A program made the position numbers and the translations under genes. From the NCBI GenBank assembly GCA_902826815.1, contig CADEGF010000003.1, forward strand, positions 124,001 through 188,000: a DNA stretch of 64,000 nucleotides. Direction: 5' to 3'. Source of the DNA: an uncultured Mycobacteriaceae bacterium. Lineage in GTDB: Bacteria; Actinomycetota; Actinomycetes; Mycobacteriales; Mycobacteriaceae. This document shows positions 12,225-42,582 of this stretch, piece by piece. The notes below the pieces were generated by a model that made no database searches, had not been told where the DNA came from, and saw nothing but the letters and a program-made list of their open reading frames with translations. How positions within the stretch are numbered: position 1 is the stretch's first letter; the number at the start of each line of letters is the position of its first letter.

Positions 12225-13621
12225 CCAGCGTCCTCGATGCGCCGTGGTTCTACTGGGCCGTCGGGGTGGCCATCGGCTTCCCCGTCGCATTGGTGGTGCT
12301 CACCGAGCTTCAGAATGCGTTGCGACGCAAGAACAGTTTCCTGGCGCGTCCGGTCCATCTGCTCCGCACCTACATCCTGCCGCTCGGCGCCCTGCTGCTG
12401 TTGTTGGTCGGGGCCGTTCAGGTATCCGGCGAGGCGACCCCGGTCCGCATCGTGTCGACCGTCTTCTTCGTCGTGGTGCTCGTCCTCCTGCTGTCCGGCC
12501 TGAACGCGACGGTGTTCCAGGGCGCGCCCGACGGCTCCTGGCGCAAGCGCATCCCGACCATTTTCCTCGACGTCGCGCGCTTCGCGCTGATCGCCGTCGG
12601 GATCGCGCTGATCCTGGCCTACATCTGGGGGGCCAACGTCGGCGGCCTGTTCACGGCGCTCGGCATCTCGTCGATCGTGCTCGGTCTGGCGCTGCAGAAC
12701 TCGGTGGGCCAGATCATCTCCGGTCTCCTCGTGCTGTTCGAGCAGCCGTTTCAGATCGGCGACTGGATCGAGACACCGACCGCGAAGGGTCGGGTGGTCG
12801 AGGTCAACTGGCGCGCAACGCATATCGACACCGGTGGCGGCCTGCAGATCATGCCGAACTCGGTGCTGGCCGCCGCATCGTTCACGAACTTCAGCCGACC
12901 GCCGGGCAGTCACTCGCTGTCGGTGTCGACCGTGTTCTCCGTCGACGATCCGCCCGATGATGTGTGCCGAATGCTGAATCGGGTCGCGGCGTCGCTCCCC
13001 CAGTTGCGGCCCGACGCCGCACCGTCGAGCTACGCCGGAGGAGGCCTGAAATACACCACCTCGATACCGGTGCGTTCGCCTGCCGACGACTTCGCGGCCA
13101 AGGTGACCTTCATGCGCTGGGTCTGGTACGCATCGCGGCGTGCAGGCCTGCATCTCGACGAGGCGGAAGACGAGTTCGCCACCACTGAGAGAGTGAACGC
13201 TTCGTTGGCGATCATCGCACCCACTCTCCGATTGACCCAGTCCGAACAGGATGAGCTGCTCCCCCGCGCTCGCCTGATCCGCTACGGCGCCGACGAGTGC
13301 ATCCAGTCGGCGGGCCAGGTGCCCAAGAGGATGACCTTCATCGTCAACGGTAGGGTCCGACTGGTGGCGAACGGCGAGGACGGCTCGGTCATACCGGTAC
13401 GGATACTCGAGGAAGGCGACTTCCTCGGCCAGACGGCATTGACACGAGAGCCGGTTTCAGCGTCTGCCTACGCCATCGACGAGGTCACCGTTCTTCAGCT
13501 GAACCGCGAGCACATCGAGGGTCTGGTCGATCGGAAGCCCGTGTTGCTGCAGGACATCGGGCGTGCGATCGACGACAGGCGGGCCGATCTGCGCCGCGCG
13601 ATCTCGGCGGCCGCCGACTAG
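12221..13621 (+). CDS. MscS-type channel with cyclic-nucleotide-binding domain
   Basis: 466 residues. Helices near 12-30, 47-65, 75-95 and 110-140, then the MscS pore helix and beta domain ([16 protein letters not shown], then FQIGDWIE and [10 protein letters not shown]). Residues about 345-455 form a CRP/PKA-like nucleotide-binding fold, so this belongs to the bacterial cyclic-nucleotide-gated MscS group. The phosphate-binding cassette is altered: [15 protein letters not shown] has Gln404 where Glu is expected and Val412 where Arg is expected. GTG start overlaps the cyclase stop. It may respond to another ligand, or to the cyclase protein itself. Confidence 0.88.
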
Positions 13622-38971: not shown

Positions 38972-39079
38972 ACACGCTCTAACGTGGCAAATCTCACCTA
39001 GTTGCCCGCTCCCGAAAGGATGCGGGCGGCTACGGTAGACGCTGTATTGAACGTGAAGCCCTTCGAGGAGCAACAGCTG

Positions 39080-40450
39080 ATGAGCCACCCCGGAGCTACC
39101 CCGTCTGACCGACACAAGGTAGTCATCATCGGGTCGGGGTTCGGCGGGTTGACTGCCGCTAAGGCTCTCAAACGTGCCGACGTCGACATCAAGATCATTG
39201 CCAAGACCACTCACCACCTGTTCCAGCCGCTGCTGTACCAGGTGGCCACGGGCATCATCTCGTCCGGTGAGATCGCGCCGCCCACCCGGATGATCCTGCG
39301 CAAGCAGAAGAACGCCCAGGTGCTGCTCGGCGAAGCCACCCATGTCGACCTCGCGAAGAAATCCGTCCGGTCGAAACTGCTCGGCCACACCTATGTCACC
39401 CCGTACGACACGTTGATCGTCGCCGCCGGTGCCGGGCAGTCCTACTTCGGCAACGACCATTTCGCCGAGTTCGCGCCGGGTATGAAGTCGATCGACGATG
39501 CCCTGGAACTGCGTGGCCGCATCCTCGGCGCGTTCGAGCAGGCTGAGCGGTCCAGTGACCCGGGTCGGCGCGAGAAGCTGCTGACCTTCGTCGTCGTCGG
39601 CGCCGGCCCTACCGGTGTCGAGATGGCAGGGCAGATCGCCGAGCTCTCCGACTACACACTCAAGGGCGCGTTCCGGCACATCGATACCACCAAGGCCCGG
39701 GTGATCCTGCTGGACGCCGCCCCCGCGGTGCTGCCCCCCATGGGCGAGAAGCTCGGCAAAAAGGCGCAGGCGCGGCTGGAGAAGATGGGCGTCGAGATCC
39801 AGCTCAACGCAATGGTCACCGATGTCGACCGCAACGGCATCACGGTCAAGGATCCCGACGGCACCACCCGCCGGATCGAATGCGCAACAAAGGTGTGGTC
39901 GGCCGGCGTGTCGGCAAGCCCTCTCGGCAAGCAGATGGCCGATCAGTCCACCGCCGAGGTGGACCGCGCCGGCCGGATCAAGGTGGGGACCGATCTGTCG
40001 GTTCCCGGCTACCCGAACGTCTTCGTGATCGGTGACATGGCCGCCGTCGAGGGCGTGCCGGGCATGGCACAGGGCGCCATCCAAGGCGGCAAGTACGTCG
40101 CCGCCGCGATCAAGTCCGAACTGAAGGGCGCCGATCCGCTCGAACGCGAGCCGTTCGATTACTTCGACAAGGGCTCGATGGCGACGGTGTCGCGATTCTC
40201 GGCGGTGGCCCAGATCGGCCCGCTCGAGTTCGGTGGTTTCATCGCCTGGCTGGCGTGGCTGGTGCTGCACCTTGTCTACCTCGTCGGATTCCGGCGCAAG
40301 CTCGCCACGCTGCTGTCCTGGACAGTGACCTTCCTCGGCCGCGCTCGTGGAAACCTCTACATCACCGAGCAGCAGGCCTACGCCCGCACCCGAATCGAGG
40401 AGCTCGAGGAGATCGCGGCGGCCGTCGAAGGCGAGAAAGCCGCGATCTAA
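39080..40450 (+). CDS. ndh: Type II NADH dehydrogenase
   Basis: 456 residues, peripheral membrane flavoprotein passing electrons from NADH to menaquinone without pumping protons. FAD motif VVIIGSGFGGLTAAKALKR, NADH motif VVVGAGPTGVEMAGQ, FAD-binding NVFVIGDMAAVEG. The C-terminal PLEFGGFIAWLAWLVLHLVYLVGF anchors it in the membrane. ATG at 39080 has GAGGAG 9 bases ahead; the frame upstream is not coding. It faces a urease-gene relic that overlaps its stop by four bases on the other strand. Confidence 0.94.
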   Translation: MSHPGATPSDRHKVVIIGSGFGGLTAAKALKRADVDIKIIAKTTHHLFQPLLYQVATGIISSGEIAPPTRMILRKQKNAQVLLGEATHVDLAKKSVRSKLLGHTYVTPYDTLIVAAGAGQSYFGNDHFAEFAPGMKSIDDALELRGRILGAFEQAERSSDPGRREKLLTFVVVGAGPTGVEMAGQIAELSDYTLKGAFRHIDTTKARVILLDAAPAVLPPMGEKLGKKAQARLEKMGVEIQLNAMVTDVDRNGITVKDPDGTTRRIECATKVWSAGVSASPLGKQMADQSTAEVDRAGRIKVGTDLSVPGYPNVFVIGDMAAVEGVPGMAQGAIQGGKYVAAAIKSELKGADPLEREPFDYFDKGSMATVSRFSAVAQIGPLEFGGFIAWLAWLVLHLVYLVGFRRKLATLLSWTVTFLGRARGNLYITEQQAYARTRIEELEEIAAAVEGEKAAI

Positions 40451-40786
40451 CCGGCTCCGAGACGCTGGCCCTGCCACGTCGCAAGGGCTCCGCCGTCGGC
40501 GAGTTCGATCCGGTGTCGCAGCAAGGGCCTACCGCCTGCGTCGGCATGTAGCGATCCCGACCAAAAGCCTTGGTGCTCATCAGTTCTGCCGATCTGAATC
40601 CGCTCGCGACCGCTGGCCATCAGTTCGGCGACGGTGCAACGGTCGCGCGCACCTTCGAGCAGGTGGTCGGTGAGATGGCAACAGCTTCAGGGTGATTCAG
40701 GCGCAGGCCGCGTTCTGGCGGCGGCGAGCAAGCTCGGCGGCAAAAGAGATCAGCAGCCGGTCCGGTTCGTGCGGGGTCAGGCGCAT
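40447..40786 (-). pseudogene. Fused ureA/ureD relic (urease operon deletion scar)
   Basis: Begins at 40786 with MRLTPHEPDRLLISFAAELA, the start of urease gamma subunit UreA. After RRRQ the frame shifts by one: ERGLRLNHPEAVAI reads from 40715. It shifts again after 40674: TDHLLEGARDRCTVAELMAS reads from 40671, ending about UreA residue 61. From 40602 the frame goes on as RIQIGRTDEHQGFWSGSL and then GGRPLLRHRIELADGG, which resembles the middle of urease accessory protein UreD, to TAG at 40447. In H37Rv ureABCFGD lies exactly here, between Rv1847 and ndh; everything from late ureA to ureD has gone. The ureA match is firm, ureD is probable. Confidence 0.8.
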
Positions 40787-40826: not shown

Positions 40827-41237
40827 CTACTCCTGCGGGATGTTCTGCAGACGCACCTGACCCCGTGCCACCACGCGGTCACTGTCGTCTGTGATGGAGA
40901 TCAGCCACAGCTGCTGGCGCCTGCCCCGATGAATCGGCGTCGAAACCGCAGTCAACGTGCCCGACGAGATCGCGCGCAGGAAATCGGTGTTGTTGTTGAC
41001 GCCGACGACGGTGCCGCCGCCGTTCGCCGTCAGCCAGACGTGGCCCGACACGCTGGCGAGGCTCTCGACGATCGAGCAGTAGACGCCGCCGTGCATGATG
41101 CCCCACGGCTGCAGCAGCTTGTCGTGGATCTCGAGCTCGGCGCGTCCGCCGTCAGGGGTGACGTCGATGTAGCGCAGGCCGATCTCACTGTCGAAACCCT
41201 TGCCGAGGTCTGGTGGAGGCGCAATTGACACGCACAT
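40827..41237 (-). CDS. PaaI-like thioesterase (Rv1847-like)
   Basis: 136 residues of a single hotdog domain: LLQPWGIMHGGVYCSIVESLASVSG is the catalytic helix region, and VVGVNNNTDFLRAISSGTL is typical of the DHNA-CoA/PaaI thioesterase branch. Likely hydrolyses an aromatic or fatty acyl-CoA; menaquinone-pathway DHNA-CoA is possible but unproven. Starts at ATG 41237, with GTG two codons on as an option. The ureA relic starts 40 bases beyond its stop. Confidence 0.82.
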   Translation of the reverse strand: MCVSIAPPPDLGKGFDSEIGLRYIDVTPDGGRAELEIHDKLLQPWGIMHGGVYCSIVESLASVSGHVWLTANGGGTVVGVNNNTDFLRAISSGTLTAVSTPIHRGRRQQLWLISITDDSDRVVARGQVRLQNIPQE

Positions 41238-41293
41238 GTGTCTACACGGTGAAGCCCCTTCGCCCGCACCGGGCCTCGCGATACCGTCGGGAT

Positions 41294-41671
41294 ATGGCTA
41301 AAAGTGTCAAGGATTTGGTAGCCGCGGCCAATGCGGTCGTGCCGCATATATCGGTCGACGAGGCGAAGCAGAAGATCGAGGCCGGCGCCCTCGTCGTCGA
41401 CGTCCGCGAGGCGGCCGAGGTCGAGCAGAGCGGCAAGGTCGCAGGCGCCGTGCACATCCCACGCGGGATGGTGGAGTTTCGCGCCGACGCCGATACGCCT
41501 TACTACGACAAGAACTTCGCGAAGGACAAGGCGGTCATCCTGTACTGCGCGTCCGGCGGACGGGCGGCGCTGTCCGGGCAGGCGCTCAAGGAGTTGGGCT
41601 ACGCCGAGGTCTACAACCTGGGCGGGTTCACTGACTGGGCGCAGGGCGGCGGCGCCGTCGAGAAGGTTTAG
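41294..41671 (+). CDS. Rhodanese-like sulfurtransferase
   Basis: 125 residues, one rhodanese domain. IEAGALVVDVREAAEVEQSG is the first conserved box, and LYCASGGRAALSG carries the active Cys, which would bear a persulfide. The GFTDWAQGG end is standard. Could serve sulfur trafficking or cyanide detoxification. ATG at 41294, divergent from the thioesterase with 56 bases between starts. Cytoplasmic. Confidence 0.88.
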   Translation: MAKSVKDLVAAANAVVPHISVDEAKQKIEAGALVVDVREAAEVEQSGKVAGAVHIPRGMVEFRADADTPYYDKNFAKDKAVILYCASGGRAALSGQALKELGYAEVYNLGGFTDWAQGGGAVEKV

Positions 41672-41787: not shown

Positions 41788-41806
41788 ATAGGCAAGGCTG
41801 CCCTAA
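41788..41806. promoter_or_regulatory. IdeR-type iron box at the 3' end of the FhuF-like gene
   Basis: On the minus strand TTAGGGCAGCCTTGCCTAT. Against TTAGGTTAGGCTAACCTAA it matches 12-13 of 19, and it is very close to the mbt-region IdeR box TTAGGGCAGCCTGTGCTAA that I recall from M. tuberculosis. It overlaps the stop codon of the FhuF-like gene, where no promoter is needed for any gene seen here. Confidence 0.45.
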
Positions 41807-42582
41807 TTAAGCAAGCCCTTCCCGTCGCGCAGCCGGGACCCGCCCCGTACCGGCAGGCCGAACCCGACAAGCGCGTCGAGTACCGCCTGCCCGCGGCGCA
41901 TGCTCGTCAGCTCGCTGGACCGGGCCAGCAGCGGGATATGTGTCGCGGCGCCGACGACGGCTGCGCCCACGATGTGCCACATCGACGCGATCGGGATCGC
42001 GCCCCCGCTGACATCGAAGATCTTGCCGAAGAGGGGCTGCAGCGCCCGGTGGCTGCGATGCGCCACCCAGGTGGTGAGCGCCGCCTCGCTGGGCAAACGG
42101 GCCATCCCCTCCCTTGTGAAATACGCGGCACGGGTGCCGGAGCGCGTGCGGAAGAACGGATCGTCGGGCAGCGCACGCAGCGTGGGATCGACGACCCCGA
42201 CCCAGTCGATGGCGCCCTCGGAGTCGACGTGCACCCACAAATTCTCCAGGCCGGTATCCCACGCCCGGCCCTCGAGGACGAGCAGCGGGATCACCCGGCC
42301 GATGACGACGTGCGCGACCGTCGCGGCCAACTGCTGGGCCGCGGCCACCGGGCTGTCCATCTCAATGGCGCCGATCTGGAACATCTCGGCCAGCCGGTCC
42401 GTGGTGAGCGCTTCGTCGAGTGGCCACCATCGCCTGCGGGTGAGGTCGGACATCACCGCGACGCCGTAGACCCGTGGGCATTCGGGATAAAGCTCGCGTA
42501 AACGCCTGCTGGACTCATGCAGCGGCAGCGTGCGTGCGATTGCCATTCCCGCGATCAGCGGGTCGTCCACCAGGACCGTCAT
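41803..42582 (-). CDS. FhuF-like iron-related protein, no Fe-S cysteines
   Basis: 259 residues. The stretch AAAQQLAATVAHVVIGRVIPLLVLEGRAWDTGLENLWVHVDSEG resembles the core of ferric-reductase FhuF-like or IucA/IucC-C-terminal-like proteins of actinobacteria. True FhuF ends in a Cys-rich 2Fe-2S motif; this protein has a single Cys (residue 35) and none at the end, so it is probably a scaffold or non-cluster reductase variant. GGAGG before the ATG at 42582, IdeR box 16 bases upstream: iron-repressed expression is likely. Function inferred from regulation and distant similarity. Confidence 0.55.
   Translation of the reverse strand: MTVLVDDPLIAGMAIARTLPLHESSRRLRELYPECPRVYGVAVMSDLTRRRWWPLDEALTTDRLAEMFQIGAIEMDSPVAAAQQLAATVAHVVIGRVIPLLVLEGRAWDTGLENLWVHVDSEGAIDWVGVVDPTLRALPDDPFFRTRSGTRAAYFTREGMARLPSEAALTTWVAHRSHRALQPLFGKIFDVSGGAIPIASMWHIVGAAVVGAATHIPLLARSSELTSMRRGQAVLDALVGFGLPVRGGSRLRDGKGLLN

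Follow-up and report, generated by a model that had tools for sequence, protein, structure and literature searches.

Urease has a long history as a diagnostic trait among mycobacteria, and in M. stellerae (L037), M. agri (L032) and the genome G372 (L112) all six of its genes form an intact ureABCFGD cluster set between a thioesterase gene and an ndh-like gene. The reference genes of G372 were confirmed by Pfam as UreA, UreB, UreC, UreF, UreD and UreG (the last as a CobW/HypB/UreG domain), and the M. tuberculosis cluster is presumably flanked by the same neighbours. Here we analysed a window of 64,000 nucleotides (C3:124001-188000) from the draft genome of an uncultured Mycobacteriaceae bacterium (6.87 Mb in 141 contigs, 99.9% complete), in which a remnant at the same place, with the same neighbours and on the same strand, aligns to both ends of these intact clusters but lacks ureB, ureC, ureF and ureG completely and ureA and ureD in part, and has a broken reading frame (Table 1). 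The three intact loci are also the nearest relatives by flanking DNA among 86 loci compared, G372 showing 87.7% identity to the window over the ndh region. Both ends of the cluster are fused while the interior is missing and the neighbours are kept, frame breaks and altered invariant residues are present, and sister lineages hold a copy; on these alignments, the scar is almost certainly a dead remnant of ureABCFGD, left by a deletion of ~3.9 kb after the split from M. stellerae and G372.

Table 1. Features of the urease scar and its two flanking genes, in window positions.
Feature	Position	Strand	Basis or remark
ndh-like pyridine nucleotide oxidoreductase gene	39002..40450	+	Pfam family; convergent, follows ureD where the cluster is intact
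Block 2 of the ureD remnant, with C-terminus and stop	40447..40505	-	DNA alignment; stop overlaps ndh stop
Junction 2 (position approximate), in-frame loss of 108 bases within ureD	40496..40505	-	Between short imperfect repeats
Block 1 of the ureD remnant, starting at codon 123	40496..40608	-	76-81% DNA identity to ureD of three relatives
Junction 1, ureA codons 61-62 / ureD codons 123-124	40603..40608	-	CGCGA (5 bases) common to both genes in G372, M. stellerae and M. agri
ureA remnant, codons 1-62, with two single-base frame changes	40603..40786	-	Three frames; PF00547; DNA identity
Thioesterase gene (4HBT)	40827..41237	-	Pfam family; lies upstream of ureA in intact loci

The scar, 340 bases long, lies inside the 376 bases that separate the stop of the thioesterase gene (minus strand) from that of the ndh-like gene (plus strand). 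The names ndh, BlaI, WrbA and MtrA for genes of this genome are provisional, like the Rv numbers, the thioesterase gene being presumably Rv1847-like. A reading of the sequence alone (hereafter the sequence-only reading) had held that the neighbours are exactly those of the M. tuberculosis cluster, which is right for the immediate neighbours on either side, as in the relatives, but not for the stretch from the thioesterase gene to the BlaI-like regulator, where extra genes occur. These are a gene at 41213-41671, which we take to be rhodanese-like, and another at 41803-42582; in M. tuberculosis no genes are known to stand between the thioesterase gene and the regulator. No terminator or promoter was found in the scar, a result that says little for a high-GC mycobacterium.

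Within the scar, UreA is split over three frames. Its first piece matches the Pfam family PF00547 (Urease_gamma; E=1.8e-5, profile positions 1-25), and a later-frame piece matches it weakly (E=0.038, profile positions 38-64), with an unrelated weak HET-S match beside it (E=0.041). In DNA alignments, 202 columns of the scar share 83% identity with ureA of G372, ~15 of them lying ahead of the start codon (E=4e-56, and E=6.4e-52 in the whole-genome search), and the ureA remnant is 81% identical to ureA of M. stellerae and of M. agri. The UreD part alone gave no UreD family match, either among the scar proteins or in the whole-genome search, so its identity rests on DNA alignments, in which the two blocks are 81% (E=3e-25) and 77% (E=3e-13) identical to ureD of G372 and an in-frame stop closes the remnant at 40449-40447. 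The sequence-only reading placed the scar correctly at 40447-40786, and its description of UreA in three successive frames, shifted twice and then giving way to UreD-like sequence, is borne out by the frame reading, by the two single-base frame changes, by the PF00547 match and by the alignments to relatives; the translated search it had proposed was answered for UreA by the family match, and for UreD by DNA alignments to three relatives but not by a family match.

We also compared the remnant with 71 near full-length UreA rows (the duplicate or unnamed loci L113-L117 were dropped, as were rows with gaps, stops or fewer than 99 residues, and the comparison passed over columns 24-28 and 38-39, which adjoin the frame breaks), and found that it departs at 2 of the 32 columns that are invariant among them, as would suit a relaxed constraint. 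When each of the 71 rows was left out in turn, 66 departed at no invariant column and 5 at one. Changes unique to the scar are divided between codon positions 1+2 and position 3 as 7:12, the corresponding figure for intact relatives being 12:24 (p=0.51); two of the relatives entered this count with ureD rows that were cut out of place by one base and had a gap in the alignment.

Alignment with the intact loci, as the sequence-only reading had suggested, places the missing span between ureA codon 62 and ureD codon 123. This first gap measures 3890 bases against G372, 3884 against M. stellerae and 3868 against M. agri (position differences taken by hand), and a second gap, inside the ureD remnant, measures 108 bases against each of the three; the M. 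stellerae and M. agri alignments give the same scar layout as that of G372. Loss of the end of ureA, of ureB, ureC, ureF and ureG, and of part of ureD is shown against all three intact relatives, but the single deletion to which it had been ascribed gives way to at least two (3.87-3.89 kb and 108 bases), the 108-base deletion being an addition to the first reading. In all, the scar shows no fewer than two deletions, together with two breaks of the frame.

At the first break, ureA and ureD both read CGCGA in the three nearest relatives, a 5-base match taken from sequences 12-20% diverged from the window. Random pairs of ureA and ureD positions share at least 5 bases in 1.1% of cases (80,000 pairs from three relatives, one of them used twice), and among 81 loci tried both break sites were present in 59, with at least 5 bases shared in 22 of these and fewer than 5 in 37. 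At the second break, the short imperfect repeats are clearest in M. stellerae. We infer that, once the lineage of this Mycobacterium/Mycolicibacterium species had diverged from M. stellerae and G372, ~3.9 kb was lost between short stretches common to ureA and ureD, which took away the end of ureA, the whole of ureB, ureC, ureF and ureG and the greater part of ureD, perhaps through slippage or the joining of ends at such repeats. The second deletion, of 108 bases in ureD, and the two single-base frame changes in ureA may have preceded or followed this loss.

That the strain has an intact cluster and that the scar is a misjoin, produced by an error of assembly or sequencing, is very improbable. 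The draft is divided into 141 contigs and short repeats could mislead an assembler, but after a misjoin the genes ureB, ureC, ureF and ureG should still turn up on other contigs, and a misjoin would not give two frame breaks, a second loss of 108 bases or changed invariant residues. Genome-wide searches found no UreA elsewhere (PF00547, E<=0.001), no UreF or UreD family match elsewhere, nothing over the cut-off of 25 for UreB (PF00699), and two matches to the UreG model, the better at 46.1 bits against a cut-off of 204.2; the one exception is a UreC fragment of a different kind, described below. At the scar locus itself, tblastn found ureF and ureG absent and ureD only in part. Two candidates were rejected: C37:50794, with a UreB match below the cut-off (E=7e-4, 22.1 bits) in which tblastn gave no UreB, was taken as chance, and C3:36174, just over the cut-off for the N-terminal urease alpha family (PF00449, 24.9 bits), is an Amidohydro_3 protein (E=4.5e-56). 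Of the three subunits of a functional nickel urease, UreA, UreB and UreC, the genome was found to encode ureA codons 1-62 and the UreC fragment only, and in these searches it showed no accessory set of UreF, UreG and UreD.

The ureA-ureD join is in frame and the second deletion also keeps the frame, leaving one frame open from the 40s of UreA to the UreD stop, as would suit a UreA'-'UreD fusion that was or is expressed as a protein with a new role. We regard such a protein as highly unlikely, since the UreA start lies in a different frame, the active site has been lost entirely along with UreC, and two invariant UreA columns are changed; an in-frame join would, moreover, be expected by chance one time in three. 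No other genome among 396 has the fusion: the scar as a whole occurs only in this genome, and although some match was found in 259, the best other match covers the ureA part only.

Of UreC, the genome keeps only a C-terminal fragment of 41-64 residues on contig 46 (G000:C46:50572-50805; locus L126, 6573-6806), which matches UreC of G372 at 51% over 41 residues and has its best matches among 198 genomes in G055 (64% over 44 residues) and G134 (48% over 64 residues). The fragment adjoins what we take to be a WrbA-like flavodoxin gene and precedes genes that are presumably a thymidylate kinase-like gene and an MtrA-like regulator, and no other ure gene was recognised in the 3.1 kb around it. It looks like a relic of a second urease copy, and because of it such a copy probably once existed; the nearest relatives G372 and G143 have one UreA each. 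A reading in which the organism still uses urea, either with a relocated cluster or by means of a substitute urea-degrading system, could draw on this second copy, but is most improbable in view of the shortness of the fragment, its lack of ure neighbours, and a genome-wide search for urea carboxylase that gave 18 partial matches, none over the cut-off, which look like generic parts of biotin carboxylases. Returning to the scar as a dead remnant, no UreC means no active site, so that the remnant should be non-functional and the organism is predicted to be urease-negative.

Across the genus, UreA is present in 208 of 297 genomes (201 of the 275 good ones). We additionally compared 80 named loci, which are the best matches to the window thioesterase and no random sample, and 14 of which did not reach ndh. 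Among the 66 loci with both neighbours, all six ure genes were found as single matches of at least 85% length in 55 (stops unchecked), partial clusters in four (L042, L052, L061 and L084), and no ure genes in seven (L070, L072, L076, L089, L095, L096 and L098). In the last group, the same site holds no recognisable ure sequence and the interval is 12-134 bases by match ends. In M. chubuense DSM 44219 (L084, 5823-6649), ureG matches in two pieces with ~100 extra bases between them, which may reflect an insertion, a shift of frame or a faulty assembly. We also observed three loci (L036, L078 and L109, with ndh cut by the locus end) in which the thioesterase-to-ndh distance is ~9.3-9.5 kb, with all six ure genes and ~5 kb extra between ureD and ndh.

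The partial clusters differ in where they are broken. In M. frederiksbergense AC80 (L042, 10369-11440) the break joins ureC codon 115 to ureD codon 154, and in M. sp. OTB74 (L061, 10396-12589) it joins ureC codon 337 to ureD codon 84; in both, as in the scar, the deletion ends in ureD, and ureA is in two pieces. G280, which is probably the genome of L042, holds no other UreA. In M. houstonense ATCC 49403T (L052, ~12575-12607), a gap of ~0.7 kb runs between ureC codon 484 and ureF codon 169 and the rest is kept, so that its urease is probably broken in its assembly. Because the break sites differ, we take the window, L042, L061 and L052 to be separate events. The alignments overlap at the breaks by 4-7 bases in L042, by 7-8 in L061 and not at all in L052; such overlaps may be due to chance.

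A quick protein tree of ndh and thioesterase, built from 64 rows (the window, G372 and 62 of the 66 loci, four with a short ndh being dropped) and scored with L084 as urease-bearing, groups the window with M. stellerae and G372 (SH-aLRT 99), both of which bear urease. With a copy in the sister lineages, the state of the window is therefore a loss and not a gain. On this tree the urease state has to switch between present and lost at least 8 times, with starred branches forcing 7 of the switches, compared with 10.4 on average when labels are shuffled (10 of 500 shuffles were as low as 8), and the losses are thus somewhat clustered. M. genavense (L104) carries urease inside a mostly urease-less group, and the changes of state may include regains.

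The scar is a case of ordinary gene loss and pseudogenisation, such as several related species show at this site, and no new system; a literature search of titles and abstract openings found no mention of ure deletion scars in mycobacteria. Taken over the group, the mycobacterial urease cluster is likely to have been lost recurrently, a reading suggested by four losses with distinct breaks, the 8 changes on the tree, short matches at three of the four breaks, ureD ends kept in three, and the loss of two urease sets in the present genome. The scar gives a plain and testable prediction, that of a urease-negative organism, for a classical mycobacterial trait, and the separate deletions at one conserved site make up a small natural series on when mycobacteria dispense with urease.
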